Source: Candidatus Synechococcus calcipolaris G9 (GTDB lineage Bacteria; Cyanobacteriota; Cyanobacteriia; Thermosynechococcales; Thermosynechococcaceae). From it: DNA of 64,000 bases. Shown here one piece after another: positions 1 through 4,829 of the stretch. Numbering within the stretch: position 1 is the stretch's first letter; every line of letters starts with the position of its first letter. A program made the translations under genes and the position numbers. The DNA lies in contig NZ_JAKKUT010000001.1 of NCBI RefSeq assembly GCF_029582805.1, positions 1 to 64,000 on the forward strand, given 5' to 3'. The notes beneath the pieces were generated by a model, which did no database searches, was not told the origin of the DNA, and saw only the letters and a program-made list of their open reading frames with translations.

Positions 1-410
1 GGTGAGCCATCGTTAGCATCCCTTAGTTTTTTGTTGTAGAAGTCTTCAAGCTCTCGCTGTCTGGCTTGCCTTTGGCGAGATATATCCTCTAGCTTGCCAA
101 CCTCATCAATCAAAACAGGGACGGCAAGGGCCGGCCCTAGCAATTTTCCCAAACCACCTAACCCGCTTGGTGGCTTGGGCAGTTTGGGTAATTTGGGGAT
201 TTTAGGGAGTGGGATTTTAGGGGATGTTGGGGCCGGAGTCTGAGGGGTCAGGGGGCCAGGATGGGGCTTAGGGCTGTAGGGTGGCCGGGGGGGCTGGCCT
301 GGGCCATTGCCAAGGTCAACTAGGGGACGGTTAGCGGCCTCTTGGATCTGTCTCTGCCGTAATGCTTCCTTGTAGGCTTCCGCTTCCGGTACTAGATGGG
401 GGGGAATCAA
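1..410 (-). CDS. Proline-rich hypothetical protein (C-terminus outside window)
   Basis: Reading the minus strand there is an uninterrupted frame from a TTG at 410 to the window edge. It starts LIPPHLVPEAEAYKEALRQR, continues through a proline/lysine repeat region (KIPLPKIPKLPKLPKPP), a short hydrophobic stretch (LLGPALAVPVLIDEV) and a charged, probably helical tail (RQRQARQRELEDFYNKKL). The TTG lies 11 bp after the stop of the upstream gene at 421-738, so the two are probably co-transcribed. The start codon is uncertain because no ATG or clear ribosome binding site is visible. I do not recognise a family. The low-complexity linker and the mobile neighbours suggest an accessory, possibly phage- or plasmid-derived structural protein, but that is a guess. 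Confidence 0.4.
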   Translation of the reverse strand, partial: MIPPHLVPEAEAYKEALRQRQIQEAANRPLVDLGNGPGQPPRPPYSPKPHPGPLTPQTPAPTSPKIPLPKIPKLPKLPKPPSGLGGLGKLLGPALAVPVLIDEVGKLEDISRQRQARQRELEDFYNKKLRDANDGS

Positions 411-420
411 TTAACCACAC

Positions 421-738
421 CTAGTTTGATGTGTAGCTAGTTGGTAATGCTGTAGCTGACAATTCGCCCACCCCATTACTCCAAATTTTTCCCTGACCAC
501 GCCAACCAGCAACCAAGGGGAGATATAGGACAATGGCAAGCCGCTCTGGGTTGGTTGATTGGTTCTCAAAGAAAACGGATTGTACGTTAGCACTGCGGGC
601 CGCTTGACCTGGAGCTACCACGATAGTAGCTGATGGGTTAACCTCAGCTAGGGCTGAAGCTGCCCATGCTGCCAATTCTTCAAGGGTGTTCACATTGCTA
701 GGAATATTTGCGGTGCTAAAAGCTGTCATTTTCGACAA
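421..738 (-). CDS. Hypothetical protein of accessory island
   Basis: 105 residues, ATG at 738. The N-terminus reads FSTANIPSNVNTLEELAAW, the middle is a probable beta-rich segment (FFENQSTNPERLAIVLYLPL), and it ends GELSATALPTSYTSN. It has no signal peptide and one mildly hydrophobic stretch (LAIVLYLPLVAGW). I recall similar short proteins in other cyanobacterial mobile regions but cannot name a family or function. It reads away from the recombinase at 923-1480, and the region between them (739-922) must hold promoters for both. It probably forms an operon with the proline-rich frame at 1-410. Confidence 0.55.
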   Translation of the reverse strand: MSKMTAFSTANIPSNVNTLEELAAWAASALAEVNPSATIVVAPGQAARSANVQSVFFENQSTNPERLAIVLYLPLVAGWRGQGKIWSNGVGELSATALPTSYTSN

Positions 739-922
739 TCCTTAAAGGTTGGATACTGTCAGATTAGACCGCCGTTAAAGCCATGACAATTAACGTATTT
801 TAGATAGAATACGATGGGATAGAAAAACCTAGAACCTTTACAGGAACTAGGTTTAGCGTGTGCAACTAAAAGGAGATTATCTTAGGCATTCGTATTATAA
901 ATCAATGAATTACTAATTACTA
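739..922. promoter_or_regulatory. Divergent intergenic region, AT-rich
   Basis: This 184-bp spacer separates the minus-strand gene ending at 738 from the recombinase at 923. It is clearly more AT-rich than its surroundings. Two promoter-like elements are visible on the plus strand: TTAACG followed by TAGAAT around 789-807, and TATAAT-like text (TATTATAAAT) at 893-902 just before the recombinase start. No operator-like palindrome was found. Promoter assignment is by eye only. Confidence 0.3.
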
Positions 923-1480
923 ATGAAAATTCTACGATCTGGACAAGCTGAACCGTTAAACCCTGAAACTTTTTTAAGGCTTTATCAGGAATTGAAACCG
1001 CCCCATAATTTTATTTTAGGGGTGACTTGGTACTGTGCTGAACGGGTTGGGGCCGTTTGCCAACTACGGCGGGCCAATGTTTACGATCGCAAGGGGAAAC
1101 CCCTAGATGCTGTGGTAATTCCCGGGGCCAGTAGAAAGGATCGGTGTACCAGGGAAGTATCAGTTACCCCTAAACTGCGAAAATTATTAATCCAGATTCC
1201 TAAATCTGATTCAGAGTGGCTCTTTCCAAGCCAGTTAAACCCTAAGAAACATATTCATCCTGATTGCTATAAGGCCGCGCTCTCTAGGGCCTGCAAACGA
1301 TTGGGCCTAGTGGGCTACTCTAGCCATTCTGCTAGACGTGGGGCCATCACTCATTTAGCGCGTTCTGGAATATCTGTTAGGGTCATTCAGCAAATATCGG
1401 GACATAAATCCTTGGCCAGTGTCCAGCGGTATATTGACTTTGATTCGATAGAAGTTAGGGGAGGCCTAGAGCTTCTATAG
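923..1480 (+). CDS. Tyrosine recombinase / integrase, catalytic domain only
   Basis: 185 residues. It carries the full catalytic set of the tyrosine recombinase (phage integrase) family: Arg41 (CAERVGA), a probable beta-hairpin Lys72, the HxxR box at His135-Arg138 (HSARRG), His161 (SGHKS) and nucleophile Tyr170 (VQRYID). It lacks the N-terminal core-binding (SAM-like) domain of typical XerC/phage integrases, so it is about half the usual length. The ATG at 923 follows an AT-rich promoter-like region and no upstream in-frame start is obvious. Such minimal recombinases occur on cyanobacterial plasmids and small integrative elements. Its likely job is excision, integration or resolution of this island. 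No core att repeat was identified by eye. Confidence 0.85.
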   Translation: MKILRSGQAEPLNPETFLRLYQELKPPHNFILGVTWYCAERVGAVCQLRRANVYDRKGKPLDAVVIPGASRKDRCTREVSVTPKLRKLLIQIPKSDSEWLFPSQLNPKKHIHPDCYKAALSRACKRLGLVGYSSHSARRGAITHLARSGISVRVIQQISGHKSLASVQRYIDFDSIEVRGGLELL

Positions 1481-1891
1481 GGTCTTGCCTATATATTTGC
1501 TCCTGGTCTTGCCATCCTGTTTCCAGAATCCATACCAGTATGGGCCATGGGGGCATCGTTTACAGCCTGATTTTCCGCAGTATACCCCTTTTAGTTGGTA
1601 GGTCATGGTGGGGCCTGCCATTGGGTTCTTATCTAACCCGTTTTCCGTGGTTGGGGATGAATCGGTTAGATAAGATGCCTTAGAGCTTTCTAAGGCATCC
1701 GCTTTACGTTTAGGTTTTGCGGCTTCCAGGGGTTGAGGAGTATTTAGGGAATCGGCGATCGGTGCCATGGAATTATTTAGGTCTTGCCGATCGCTGGACT
1801 GATTGCGATCGCCGCCGGCCTGGTTGCGATCGCTTTGTAAGGCATCTTCAATGGTTAATTGCCGTGGATCATCCCAATGATCAGGACTCAT
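1475..1891 (-). CDS. Island protein with DUF6788-like Cys-rich C-terminus (tandem copy A)
   Basis: 138 residues, ATG at 1891. The N-terminus HWDDPRQLT is followed by a variable pentapeptide (IEDAL here), then a polar, probably disordered linker of about 80 residues identical to copy B. The C-terminus is CGKSGCKRCPHGPYWYGFW followed by KTRSKYIGK. That tail, with three cysteines, a histidine and YIGK, resembles the short DUF6788-type module seen in cyanobacteria and archaea, possibly zinc- or nucleic-acid-binding. The gene overlaps the end of the recombinase by 6 bp (convergent) and the end of copy B by 11 bp. The function is unknown. The modular make-up, with a constant core and different ends, is the notable property. 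Confidence 0.65.
   Translation of the reverse strand: MSPDHWDDPRQLTIEDALQSDRNQAGGDRNQSSDRQDLNNSMAPIADSLNTPQPLEAAKPKRKADALESSKASYLTDSSPTTENGLDKNPMAGPTMTYQLKGVYCGKSGCKRCPHGPYWYGFWKQDGKTRSKYIGKTL
1590..1883. repeat. Direct repeat, copy 1 (294 bp; first 248 bp exact)
   Basis: Bases 1590-1837 match 2011-2258 base for base at a constant offset of 421. After a 16-bp window that differs (1838-1853 against 2259-2274), the match resumes for 30 bp (1854-1883 against 2275-2304). The repeat spans most of the coding sequence of tandem copy A. Confidence 0.97.
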
Positions 1892-2309
1892 GGCCTAGCA
1901 CCTGGGCTTGGCTGTCAATCGGTTGGGGGCCAAAGTCATCGGGAAGTTGATCAATGGTTATATCAAGGGCCTTGCATAGGTTTTTAACTTGCCTTGGGGA
2001 TAATTGCGGCTTTAGTTGGTAGGTCATGGTGGGGCCTGCCATTGGGTTCTTATCTAACCCGTTTTCCGTGGTTGGGGATGAATCGGTTAGATAAGATGCC
2101 TTAGAGCTTTCTAAGGCATCCGCTTTACGTTTAGGTTTTGCGGCTTCCAGGGGTTGAGGAGTATTTAGGGAATCGGCGATCGGTGCCATGGAATTATTTA
2201 GGTCTTGCCGATCGCTGGACTGATTGCGATCGCCGCCGGCCTGGTTGCGATCGCTTTGAAGGTAAAAGTCAAAAGTTAATTGCCGTGGATCATCCCAATG
2301 ATCATCCAT
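1881..2309 (-). CDS. Island protein sharing identical core with its neighbour (tandem copy B)
   Basis: 142 residues, ATG at 2309. It has the same HWDDPRQLT head and the same polar linker as copy A. The pentapeptide differs (FDFYL), and after the shared MTYQLK the C-terminus is unrelated: SPRQVKNLCKALDITIDQLP, which looks like a short helical, HTH-like module. The start overlaps the 3' end of the XRE gene by 8 bp, so XRE, copy B and copy A probably form one minus-strand operon. The function is unknown. Copy A and copy B look like products of a recent segmental duplication followed by exchange of the ends. Confidence 0.6.
   Translation of the reverse strand: MDDHWDDPRQLTFDFYLQSDRNQAGGDRNQSSDRQDLNNSMAPIADSLNTPQPLEAAKPKRKADALESSKASYLTDSSPTTENGLDKNPMAGPTMTYQLKPQLSPRQVKNLCKALDITIDQLPDDFGPQPIDSQAQVLGHES
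2011..2304. repeat. Direct repeat, copy 2 (294 bp; first 248 bp exact)
   Basis: This is the second copy of the repeat at 1590-1883, lying inside tandem copy B. The complete identity of the 248-bp core, including synonymous positions, indicates either very recent duplication or gene conversion. The 16-bp difference near the N-terminal codons is therefore not explained by slow drift. Confidence 0.97.
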
Positions 2310-2544
2310 TTATCTGATGGATCCGCTTGATATTCTCTAGAGCCTCTACCAATTCAGCTAGAGAGCAGTTTAGAAGATGGCAAAGCTTCTGCATTTCAGA
2401 AGGGGTAAGCGTAGGCTCTGTTTTTCCGCGTTCCCAATCTGAGATAGTTGCTTGCCTAACTCCCAGTAGCTCTGCAAGTTGTACCTGACTCAATCCAACG
2501 TTTTGCCGCAACATTTTTAGAGTTAGTAAATCTTCATTTCCCAT
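2302..2544 (-). CDS. XRE-family HTH repressor
   Basis: 80 residues, ATG at 2544. It is a single Cro/C1-type helix-turn-helix domain: LRQNVGLSQVQLAELLGVRQ, then ATISDWERGKTEPT, the canonical helix 2-turn-helix 3 pattern with the WERG motif. No dimerisation or sensor domain is present, as in many small element-encoded repressors and antitoxin-like regulators. Two operator-like palindromes lie at and just upstream of its start (2545-2562, 2586-2603), so it probably represses itself and perhaps the divergent plus-strand ORFs from 2716. Downstream it overlaps copy B, making it the first gene of the operon. Confidence 0.88.
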   Translation of the reverse strand: MGNEDLLTLKMLRQNVGLSQVQLAELLGVRQATISDWERGKTEPTLTPSEMQKLCHLLNCSLAELVEALENIKRIHQING

Positions 2545-2562
2545 TATACGCTTGACCGGATA
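2545..2562. promoter_or_regulatory. Candidate XRE operator O1 (imperfect)
   Basis: TATACGCTTGACCGGATA abuts the XRE start codon (ATG complement at 2542-2544). It matches the perfect palindrome at 2586-2603 in its first 11 bases and in the same 8-2-8 layout. Occupancy here would block translation-proximal transcription of the repressor gene, which fits autoregulation. Confidence 0.6.
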
Positions 2563-2585
2563 AGAGAGTTAGGCTAGAGTGCTGA

Positions 2586-2603
2586 TATACGCTTGAGCGT
2601 ATA
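2586..2603. promoter_or_regulatory. Candidate XRE operator O2 (perfect palindrome)
   Basis: TATACGCT-TG-AGCGTATA is an 8-bp inverted repeat, perfect except for the 2-bp centre. It lies 42 bp upstream of the XRE start and 113 bp upstream of the divergent ORF at 2716. Cro/C1-type repressors bind such short palindromes. The second, degenerate copy at 2545-2562 supports a paired-operator arrangement. Confidence 0.7.
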
Positions 2604-2649
2604 GAGCTTTGAAAACAGAACAAGCGATCGCCGGTTGGCAATCGCTCAG

Positions 2650-2718
2650 GGAGTTTTCATCTTTTTTTCACCCTAACGCGATCGCGGCTAAGAACCGGCG
2701 ATCGCTAATTCCCCCATG
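2650..2718 (+). repeat. Leader repeat, copy 1
   Basis: GGAGT, a T-run, CACC, a HIP1-containing core (GCGATCGCGGCTAAGAAC) and CGATCGCT lead into the ATG at 2716. The same series recurs at 2960-3030 before the next small ORF with only scattered differences. It may be a duplicated promoter/leader or the upstream part of a duplicated gene cassette. Confidence 0.85.
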
Positions 2719-2952
2719 CCTAACTTTATATTTCTGCCCAGAATTCAAACAACGTTCAACCTTGAACACTTAGTAAGGATTGAGTGGATAGATTCTGAGA
2801 TTCAGATTGTACGTTTAGACTTTGTGGACGGCGATCCCCTGTTTATCGAAATGGCAGAGGCCCTAGAGCTTGAGAAATGGATCGAGGAATACTTTCCAGT
2901 GTTTTCGGTCAGGGCCGTAAATCCTCCACAAGATAACCCAGATGATTTTTAA
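2716..2952 (+). CDS. Small hypothetical protein, cassette 1
   Basis: 78 residues. It contains a likely beta-rich first half (FNLEHLVRIEWIDSEIQIVRLDFV) and a C-terminal helix (EMAEALELEKWIEEYF). It shares layout and several residues with the 112-aa product at 3028-3366: FxxxP near the N-terminus, H-x-V in the first strand, an IxxI pair and a C-terminal helix. They look like diverged paralogues. Because both also have duplicated leaders, the whole leader-plus-gene unit was probably duplicated. I do not recognise the family. It stands on the strand opposite to the XRE operon and may be under its control. Confidence 0.5.
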   Translation: MPNFIFLPRIQTTFNLEHLVRIEWIDSEIQIVRLDFVDGDPLFIEMAEALELEKWIEEYFPVFSVRAVNPPQDNPDDF

Positions 2953-2959
2953 TCCGCCT

Positions 2960-3030
2960 GGAGTCACTGTCTTTTTTTTTCACCGTATCGCGATCGCGGC
3001 TAAGAACTGACGATCGCTCTAACTGCCATG
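2960..3030 (+). repeat. Leader repeat, copy 2
   Basis: Near-copy of 2650-2718: GGAGT, a nine-T run, CACC, then GCGATCGCGGCTAAGAAC and CGATCGCT immediately before the ATG at 3028. In addition, AATCCGCCTG occurs just after the stop codon of each small ORF (2951-2960 and 3370-3379), so the repeated unit has conserved borders on both sides. Confidence 0.85.
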
Positions 3031-3366
3031 AATGATTTTGTAGACATCCCAACTTTTTTTAAGGTGGGAAACCACTGGGTTAACTTACAAGCGATTGACT
3101 GTATTACTGAATTTCAGGCCGAAGGCAAAGCAATGATTTTTGTTTTGCAGATCGGGGAGTCACGGATCCAAGTTTCAGGTGCGGGGGCGATCAGACTGCG
3201 AGCCATCCTAGCGTTTCTGGATGACATCACAGATCGCGCGATCGTTCGTCTAGCCTGCCCTAATTTTCCTAATGAACAGGAATCAACTAGCTCAGATTGG
3301 GATGCCGCCGTTGACACAGCCAGCCAGTACGAAACCCTAAACAAGGCTGATTACTTCACTTTCTAG
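3028..3366 (+). CDS. Small hypothetical protein, cassette 2
   Basis: 112 residues, ATG at 3028 at the end of the repeated leader. Pattern: FFKVGNHWVNLQAIDCI, then a strand segment (MIFVLQIGESRIQVSG), a helix (GAIRLRAILAFLDDI) and a polar, likely disordered tail. It is the longer sister of the product of 2716-2952. No known domain is recognised and there is no signal peptide or membrane segment. The pair may be accessory proteins of the element, but nothing in the sequence fixes a function. Confidence 0.5.
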   Translation: MNDFVDIPTFFKVGNHWVNLQAIDCITEFQAEGKAMIFVLQIGESRIQVSGAGAIRLRAILAFLDDITDRAIVRLACPNFPNEQESTSSDWDAAVDTASQYETLNKADYFTF

Positions 3367-3380
3367 ATCAATCCGCCTGA

Positions 3381-3644
3381 TGAGTTCCCTTGAAGCCAGG
3401 GAACGAAATTGCCCCTATCCATTGGGGCGATCGCGGATCGGCTTCCATCACCGACCGCCAGGGTAATCACCTAAAGGCTGATGATTTTGGCATGATATTG
3501 GCCCCGTTGCCTTTTCATTATCTCGGTCACGGTCTTAGGCCACCCTGCCCTTGTGGCCTTCAAGTAGATTTGGGAATCTTTGGGACAATCACGGGCCGAT
3601 GCTTGGGGAACTGATGGAACGTCCCTAGCTAGAGTTAATCCACC
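3381..3644 (+). ncRNA. Hairpin-rich region upstream of IS110-like recombinase (candidate bridge-RNA-like transcript)
   Basis: The 278 bp between the small ORF and the DEDD recombinase contain several perfect short stems: GTTCCCT/AGGGAAC (3384-3390 with 3398-3404), GCCCC/GGGGC (3411-3415 with 3424-3428, 8-nt loop), CGATC/GATCG (3429-3441) and AGGCCAC/GTGGCCT (3537-3543 with 3553-3559, 9-nt loop). In IS110-family elements the structured bridge RNA is transcribed from just this position, upstream of the recombinase, and is of similar size. The structural resemblance and position are what I see. That this is a bridge RNA is inference. A short ORF (3390-3614) covers the same bases and is the competing explanation. 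Confidence 0.3.
3390..3614 (+). CDS. Doubtful small ORF overlapping the hairpin region
   Basis: 74 residues from a TTG. It has no clear ribosome binding site, because the start lies inside the stem of the first hairpin. The product (IHWGDRGSASITDRQGNHLK, then a Cys/Pro/Gly-rich second half) has some protein-like composition but no recognised domain. It may be real, or simply open by chance over a structured non-coding region. Codon-substitution analysis in relatives would separate these. Confidence 0.25.
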   Translation: MKPGNEIAPIHWGDRGSASITDRQGNHLKADDFGMILAPLPFHYLGHGLRPPCPCGLQVDLGIFGTITGRCLGN

Positions 3645-4829
3645 ATGATCAAAATGATGGGTATCGACATAAGCCGATGCCGCGCTTCAGTTTGCCTTAT
3701 CAACGAATTGCCAGATGAACCGCTTGATTGGTTCAGGCAGAATAGAGATAAAATCATTGACATTTACCCCAACCGTGAGGGCATAGAACAGTTACTCAAT
3801 TTAGGGCCTACCCATGTAGCCTTAGAGCCTACGGGTATTCACTACAGCAAGATTTGGGTAAATTATTTATCCCAGATGGGTGCGGAAATCCTATGGGTAG
3901 GGCATAGCCAACTATGCAGTACCCGAAAGTCATTTAGGTTATCTGGCAAGAATGATCATGCCGATGCCCTTGCCTTAGCTTGCTATGGGTTGCAGAAGTT
4001 GGATAAGCCTAAATGGTTTCTCAATTTTGACCTATACAGCGAAGCGTATAAATTGCGGCAAGTTTGCCTAGAAATTAACCACCTGGAACGGCGATCAGTG
4101 CCGATCATGAATCGGATCAGACAACAGTTAAGCCATGAATGGCCCGAAATGGCACAATCCCGATCTAGGGGCCCGCTATGGTTCTGGATTGCTGGGGAAC
4201 CGGCCAAGAGCAAACGTACAGAAACTATCTACACAAGGGACTTGGCCCATTCTATAGGGATGGGATTAAGTGACTTTACCCGCTTCCAGGCTATGCAATG
4301 GGTAGAAATTGAGAAACGGCTTAATCGCCTGGATGCTGAGTTAGTAGAACTGCTAAAAAATCCCGATTACATCCTGTATCGGCAAGCCATGGGGCCGTTT
4401 AATTTTAGTCTCAGGATTGAGAGCATTCTACTGGCTCACATCTATCCCTTTGAAAATTTCCTTAATGCCGATGGTTCAGAAATCATTGAATGGGTTAAAG
4501 GTAGCAAGGGACAGCGTTCTAAGCGTAATCGTAGCCAGAAGGCCTTTAAGCTGTTCATTGGAATTGGCAAGGTTGAAAAATCCAGCGGTGAATCAACGGA
4601 GTGGGTAAAGGGAGGCTCTAAGCTGTGTCGTTCTGCCCTATGGCAATATATCCATACCATGATTGAAATCCGATCACATCGCCCTAAGAATGCCATCGGT
4701 GAAGAATTGGGGGCCTTGTGTGATGAGTTGAAATCGTACCGACTGCATGGGCGTGAGATACAGGCTAGGCTTTATTGCAGAACCGCTAACCTACTTTACA
4801 AAGCCGTGCTATCAACCTTGAGAAAATAA
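3645..4829 (+). CDS. IS110-like DEDD recombinase / transposase (divergent)
   Basis: 394 residues, ATG at 3645. The N-terminal RuvC-like half carries the DEDD set of the IS110 family: Asp8 (GIDIS), Glu61 (ALEPTG), and Asp104 and Asp107 (GKNDHADALA). The C-terminal half has the Transposase_20-like signature with a candidate serine nucleophile at 313-314 (EKSSGES), followed by KGGSKLCRSALWQYI (322-336). Family knowledge: IS110 enzymes use both domains and a non-coding bridge RNA to pair donor and target DNA. The insertion between the halves and the loose C-terminal consensus make it a divergent member. Flanking inverted repeats are not expected for IS110 and none are seen. It could also be an invertase (Piv-like) or domesticated. 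Confidence 0.8.
   Translation: MIKMMGIDISRCRASVCLINELPDEPLDWFRQNRDKIIDIYPNREGIEQLLNLGPTHVALEPTGIHYSKIWVNYLSQMGAEILWVGHSQLCSTRKSFRLSGKNDHADALALACYGLQKLDKPKWFLNFDLYSEAYKLRQVCLEINHLERRSVPIMNRIRQQLSHEWPEMAQSRSRGPLWFWIAGEPAKSKRTETIYTRDLAHSIGMGLSDFTRFQAMQWVEIEKRLNRLDAELVELLKNPDYILYRQAMGPFNFSLRIESILLAHIYPFENFLNADGSEIIEWVKGSKGQRSKRNRSQKAFKLFIGIGKVEKSSGESTEWVKGGSKLCRSALWQYIHTMIEIRSHRPKNAIGEELGALCDELKSYRLHGREIQARLYCRTANLLYKAVLSTLRK

Follow-up and report, generated by a model that had tools for sequence, protein, structure and literature searches.

A tandem gene pair as a probable recombination scar in the repressor region of a prophage-like element of Candidatus Synechococcus calcipolaris G9, and an inverted repeat associated with DUF6788-like genes

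Two adjacent genes that share a perfectly identical core, here called gene A and gene B, lie within the first 64 kb of contig C1 of Candidatus Synechococcus calcipolaris G9 (from here: the window, 64,000 nt of a 3.3-Mb genome in 8 contigs). With a probability that we put at about three in four, this pair is a scar of recombination within the repressor/immunity region that an integrated prophage-like element carries; replacement of a cassette there would have left a remnant of the old repressor behind. If so, the pair displays at the level of single bases how such an element swaps its repressor specificity while keeping half of the old one.

The gene pair and the half repressor between its cores

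The features of the element within the window are the following; C7 and C8 denote contigs with related loci.

421..738, minus strand: ORF105, a conserved neighbour of the small integrase, 89.0% to C7 and 86.5% to C8, with similar ORFs in other loci
923..1480, plus strand: small tyrosine recombinase, 185 aa, convergent with gene B (PF00589, E 1.2e-18; phrog_216)
1475-1891, minus strand: gene B, 138 aa, complete gene; head MSPDHWDDPRQLT-IEDAL, core, DUF6788-like Cys/HGPYWY tail
1590..1837: core copy 1 (248 nt); same sequence in core copy 2 and in C7
1627..1675 (again 2048-2096): perfect inverted repeat in the core, TCTTATCTAACC-N25-GGTTAGATAAGA
1674..1699: adjoining perfect palindrome, GATGCCTTAGA-GCTT-TCTAAGGCATC
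1838..1853, minus strand: 16-nt block coding for most of IEDAL; class-2 type, compare MDEAL in C8
1881-2309, minus strand: gene A, 142 aa, in-frame fusion; head MDDHWDDPRQLT-FDFYL, core, C-terminal remnant of XRE2
1884..2010, minus strand: remnant (C-terminal half) of a class-2 XRE repressor, XRE2; forms the tail of gene A and runs into the start of gene B
2011..2258: core copy 2; the inverted repeat recurs here at 2048-2096
2302..2544, minus strand: XRE1 repressor, 80 aa (PF01381, E 3.7e-17)
2545..2603: two operator-like sites, TATACGCTCAAGCGTATA and TATCCGGTCAAGCGTATA (XRE strand)
2716..2952, plus strand: ORF78, divergent
3028..3366, plus strand: ORF112, present in C8, absent in C7
3645..4829, plus strand: IS110-type DEDD transposase-like protein (PF01548, E 5.3e-7), element edge

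Self-comparison of the window gave 248/248 identical positions between 1590-1837 and 2011-2258, spaced by 421 nt, and another 30/30 between 1854-1883 and 2275-2304 at the same offset. Both stretches had been described in this way by the initial annotation, which was also right about the IEDAL and FDFYL residues and the presence of two differing tails. The 16-nt block in between (1838-1853 versus 2259-2274), which it had called completely different, differs at 9 of its 16 positions. On the head side, identity starts precisely with the TGA that terminates each of the upstream reading frames. Along the minus strand the order is XRE1, head A, core, half XRE2, head B, core and tail; the start of gene B and the stop of the upstream frame overlap. 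A third copy, previously overlooked, is located at 3394-3687 of C7, and a search of the genome with the whole core returned no copies besides this one and the two on C1. Searches of plasmid and phage collections gave no match, and viral contigs with the integrase were not found.

The tail of gene A (PQLSPRQVKNLCKALDITIDQLPDDFGPQPIDSQAQVLGHES) had been taken as a helical module unrelated to that of gene B. It indeed differs from the latter, but it is homologous to a repressor C-terminus: it aligns with the C-terminal half of XRE proteins from just past the recognition helix, with 61% identity to the C8 repressor at the protein level and 61% at the DNA level. In C8, an intact homologue of the XRE2 remnant stands directly upstream of a related gene, and the end of the remnant overlaps the start of gene B in the same way as the C8 repressor overlaps its downstream gene. 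Gene A, with half of a repressor gene as its tail, is an in-frame fusion and carries no alternative tail module. The fusion is probably non-functional; some role for it is possible. We infer that gene B is the working copy, and its product would bind DNA as an accessory protein co-produced with the repressor.

These observations do not support the earlier suggestion of a modular adaptor with interchangeable ends: one of the tails is half a repressor, the tandem was seen a single time, and elsewhere the family is represented by lone genes with an ordinary tail. Family genes beside the small integrase were single and carried the ordinary C-terminal domain in genome G016, at two loci of G412 and in G476. 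The HWDDPRQLT head, for which the initial annotation had proposed a survey of cyanobacterial relatives, occurs among 386 genomes of the phylum only in this one, three times. The head-tail reshuffling that the annotation had envisaged is nevertheless real: the C7 gene pairs the head of A with the tail of B.

A mosaic element and its repressor cassettes

The window locus (1-4829) belongs to a recurrent cyanobacterial element that consists of a small tyrosine recombinase, ORF105, a repressor cassette, divergent small ORFs, an IS110-type protein and a long, often Pro-rich protein (further loci L005:1-5866, L006:5833-15611, L059:1909-10207, L057, L058 and L094). C1, C7 and C8 each hold the recombinase, the conserved ORF105, the divergent ORF78 and an IS110-type protein, and ORFs similar to the latter occupy the equivalent place in C7, C8, G016 and G476. 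Other proteins, including structural genes of the element, had no solid match in Pfam or PHROGs. A GCGATCGC-rich repeat precedes both ORF78 and ORF112 (2662-2706 and 2974-3018; 27 nt, 93%, repeat finder), and in C8 the Pro-rich gene (L006:10083-14155) is partly tandem-duplicated, its frames of 526 and 861 aa sharing a long stretch.

In C7, a single gene of 137 aa, composed of MDDHWDDPRQLTFDFYL, the core and the Cys/HGPYWY tail, follows an 80-aa XRE protein. In C8, the gene codes for 175 aa with FHQFTMDEAL as its head and HGPYLY in its tail, and the gene of a 105-aa XRE protein ending in FGPQPIETNRQVLGDG overlaps it. ORF112 is shared by C1 and C8 and missing from C7, and in G016, from the same family, this layout recurs with one gene.

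The C1 element is a mosaic with C8-like flanks, an integrase and core identical to C7, and a new repressor head and operator. Identity between C1 and C8 amounts to 97.4% at 1-273, 98.9% at 2612-2960 (96.9% to C7) and 98.8% at 2961-3447, and the C1 integrase matches that of C8 at only 61% at the DNA level. C1 and C7 are 100% identical at 773-1308 (536 nt, the recombinase region), 1403-1837 and 2011-2258. The C-terminal half of XRE1 together with head A resembles C7 (97.7%), whereas the N-terminal half with the HTH is unlike either relative (63.1% to C7, 51% to C8). Given the likeness of the IEDAL block to MDEAL of C8, it probably arrived with the class-2 repressor. Copying of the block from the core palindrome, with which it shares GATGCCTTA, was considered and set aside as less simple than such inheritance.

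The arrangement around XRE1 corresponds in layout to a temperate-phage-type immunity region, with the repressor at 2302-2544, two palindromic or half sites at 2545-2603 and divergent ORFs at 2716-3366. Ahead of each XRE start there is a palindrome plus a second site that overlaps the start. C7 and G016 have in common the helix VTRQT[IV]SEWENG and the operator-like site TGTCGG..CCGACA; C8 and G412 have in common the helix V[TS]E[AT]TVRNWE[RK]G and a AAGCGTAAAT-type site, which is a clean palindrome in C8 and diverged in G412; C1 presents a third pairing, of helix VRQATISDWERG with TATACGCTCAAGCGTATA. HTH and predicted operator thus co-vary in three pairings, two of them shared with other genomes. 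Since the two move together, the pattern supports, without proving it, that the event which made the scar was an exchange of repressor specificity.

In the scenario that we favour, one immunity cassette of operator, XRE repressor and downstream gene would have replaced another. A class-2 element like that in C8 would have taken up class-1 DNA like that in C7. One class-1 tract would have replaced integrase, tail and core, and a second, comprising operator, XRE1, head A and core, would have taken the place of the resident repressor's operator and N-terminal half. One end of the latter tract would have joined illegitimately within the old repressor gene, whose C-terminal half stayed in place, while the resident downstream gene with its IEDAL block had already been homogenised to the same core. 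The N-terminal half and operator of XRE1 would come from a third source. The joint, being in frame, would have created gene A, and the start of gene B would still overlap the upstream stop as before. Neither the donor nor the intact former repressor was found, so that we only infer the order of events.

One observation runs counter to a simple version of the scar: the 30-nt head is common to A, B and C7 across the differing 16-nt block, which calls for patchy conversion or an extra event. The block has two differences between A and C7, both synonymous, and these cluster tightly with three differences at the XRE1 end (span 76 of 393 nt, p = 0.005), as is expected from patchy conversion. The two G412 elements (L057 and L058) are 87-99% alike in their flanks and share the tail but diverge near the integrase gene, as though the integrase were exchanged as a module of its own. 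By this comparison module exchange is common in this type of element, and the tandem is not. The scar is real but local, a one-off.

Other origins of the tandem

The initial annotation had attributed the pair to cassette switching or gene conversion and not to drift. Perfect identity with sharp borders does indicate recent recombination or gene conversion; for switching, neither an inverted cassette nor a crossover site at the borders was seen.

The alternative that fares best, unlikely as an explanation by itself, is that the 421-bp unit of core, XRE2 remnant and head B amplifies and collapses by slippage or RecA, with copy number varying and the C1 form passing into that of C7. The 248-nt direct repeats lie 173 nt apart, and deletion in silico from core to core in the window removes 421 bp and yields exactly the 137-aa protein of C7, the product with no unit left. 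From this match, a one-way deletion that recreates the C7 form is predicted and plausible. It would lose the XRE2 remnant permanently and hence could not serve as a reversible switch. Amplification and collapse are compatible with the scar reading and not opposed to it.

An assembly artefact from an element repeated on C1 and C7 is improbable. The contig ends at base 1 of the window, perfect copies of the core stand on two contigs, and 248 nt can surpass a read length; however, the joints core|XRE2 and XRE2-head B occur nowhere else in the genome and therefore cannot result from a collapse of known copies. The copy number of the 421-bp unit in the assembly could be wrong.

A programmed switch, in which the recombinase of the element swaps heads and tails of a modular adaptor, is very improbable. 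The sharp borders, the presence within one element of an IS110-type protein besides a tyrosine recombinase, the perfect inverted repeats of the core and the head/tail recombinant in C7 would all suit it. Yet the tail of A is a truncated repressor and no alternative cassette, the inverted repeats do not coincide with the borders of identity, the tandem is seen a single time, and inverted, silent or alternative intact cassettes and recombination sites at the borders were not found. An origin of the tandem by site-specific recombination at the inverted repeat was also rejected, as the borders of identity are 37 and about 140 nt away from it.

Diversification of the five-residue block by a retroelement or targeted hypermutation is scarcely credible: the differences between the paralogues do concentrate in the 16 nt, but the sole RVT_1 match in the genome is on contig C2 and not on that of the window, neither a nearby reverse transcriptase nor adenine-biased template and variable repeats were detected, the changes in the block between A and C7 are synonymous, the positions that differ show no adenine specificity beyond the A-rich block, and the IEDAL type resembles C8.

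The DUF6788-like domain, its inverted repeat and known systems

A strong association links genes of DUF6788-like domains to an inverted repeat of the TCTTRTSTAAC type, located within the gene in this family of elements and next to it elsewhere (window 1627-1675 and 2048-2096; L005:3431-3479; L059:7754-7799; L057:3498-3539; L013-L017, L068-L093, L149-L153). All eight family genes examined (six independent ones, as C1 equals C7 and G412 is counted twice) carry a perfect inverted repeat with arms of 10-15 nt upstream of the HGPY/GPY segment, compared with an in-frame inverted repeat of at least 9 nt in only 3/29 other DUF6788-like genes. The arms of G016 are those of the window; they read TCTTGTGTAAC in G412, TTAGGGAGC in G476 and G061, and CTAAAAACCC in C8. 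The two arms mostly differ in codon phase, suggesting selection at the DNA level, and the core DNA folds far better than shuffled sequences (z -6.6).

Around the other DUF6788-like genes the motif sits outside the gene. TCTT[AG]T[GC]TA was present within 700 bp in 37/46 loci and four reversed or scrambled 9-mers in none, and TCTTATGTA was absent from all 86 background segments. Pairs of TCTTATGTA were within 700 bp of the gene in 22/46 cases and on the same contig in 39/46. A DUF6788-like gene was held by 19/21 genomes with a paired TCTTATGTA site versus 28/270 others (Fisher p = 4e-15; the loci are not phylogenetically independent, so the p-values overstate the case). The pattern spans several families and some viral contigs. 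Additional inverted pairs of TCTTATGTA away from a domain gene were noticed on several contigs per genome (G494 C2, C3 and C4; G434 C88; G480 C2). A literature search found no paper naming DUF6788 or HGPYWY, and the pattern is apparently undescribed so far. Across cyanobacteria and in some viral contigs this uncharacterised domain is accompanied by a specific inverted DNA repeat, which offers a direct handle on its function; this side result may matter more than the scar, and the gene family and its repeat deserve a study of their own.

The tail of gene B had been likened to DUF6788 (PF20586). There is a weak resemblance, in the Cys-rich part followed by the HGPYWY...GK.RSKYIGK segment, at a Pfam score of 17.3 bits that lies below the curated cut-off of 27.2. 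Unlike DUF6788, it occupies the C-terminus here, preceded by a head and a linker, and is start-coupled to a repressor. Its model is a three-stranded sheet (pLDDT 78) with no significant fold match. The tail (1475-1650) has a weak, non-significant match to the ucm-binding protein UBP of Sulfolobus (sequence E 0.31-0.9, fold E 3.9). UBP (PDB 9efd, 9eff) binds the origin motif ucm through beta-hairpins, loses DNA binding upon mutation of K63, K67 and K69, and contacts the MCM helicase (PMC12141716). Its hairpin GKYWYKLEKIGGKLKWIYLGK aligns with GPYWY..W...GK.+S+Y+GK, and in this weak match the window protein has K, K and R at the positions of K63, K67 and K69. In a comparison made post hoc, ucm (ATTATACAAAC) and the arms GTTAGATAAGA, GTTACACAAGA and TTACATAAGA fit TTANAYAA; unlike ucm, the arms of C8, G476 and G061 do not. 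The sites here are also inverted pairs, and phylum and context differ from those of UBP.

Several heads resemble the QLxLF-type consensus of the beta-clamp motif (PMC4549789), namely QLDLF (G476), QLPLPL (G016), QLALGF (G061) and QLTFDF (here), whereas QLTIED and QFTMDE deviate (window 1840-1880 and 2260-2300; L094:4874-5138; L104; L059). The UBP and clamp likenesses are leads and not results. Tentatively, DUF6788-like proteins might be UBP-like, sequence-specific binders of the TCTTRTSTAAC-type inverted repeat that lies within or next to the gene encoding them; for the present family of elements, a clamp-binding-like head might link the site to the replication machinery, and the core might act both as a cis-acting replication or control site and as a protein linker.

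Among systems with variable genes, Piv/IS110-type and other invertible gene systems are alike in combining an IS110-type DEDD protein with variable protein ends in one element; unlike them, the present locus has no invertible segment, no pair of crossover sites at the borders and no alternative cassette. A parallel to the scar is offered by the mosaic immunity regions of lambdoid-type temperate phages, with their small HTH repressor, divergent genes, operator-like palindromes at the repressor start, and HTH and operator swapped together among related elements. The element described here is an unrelated cyanobacterial one, and unlike the lambdoid type its exchange would have left the truncated old repressor fused to a duplicated accessory gene.
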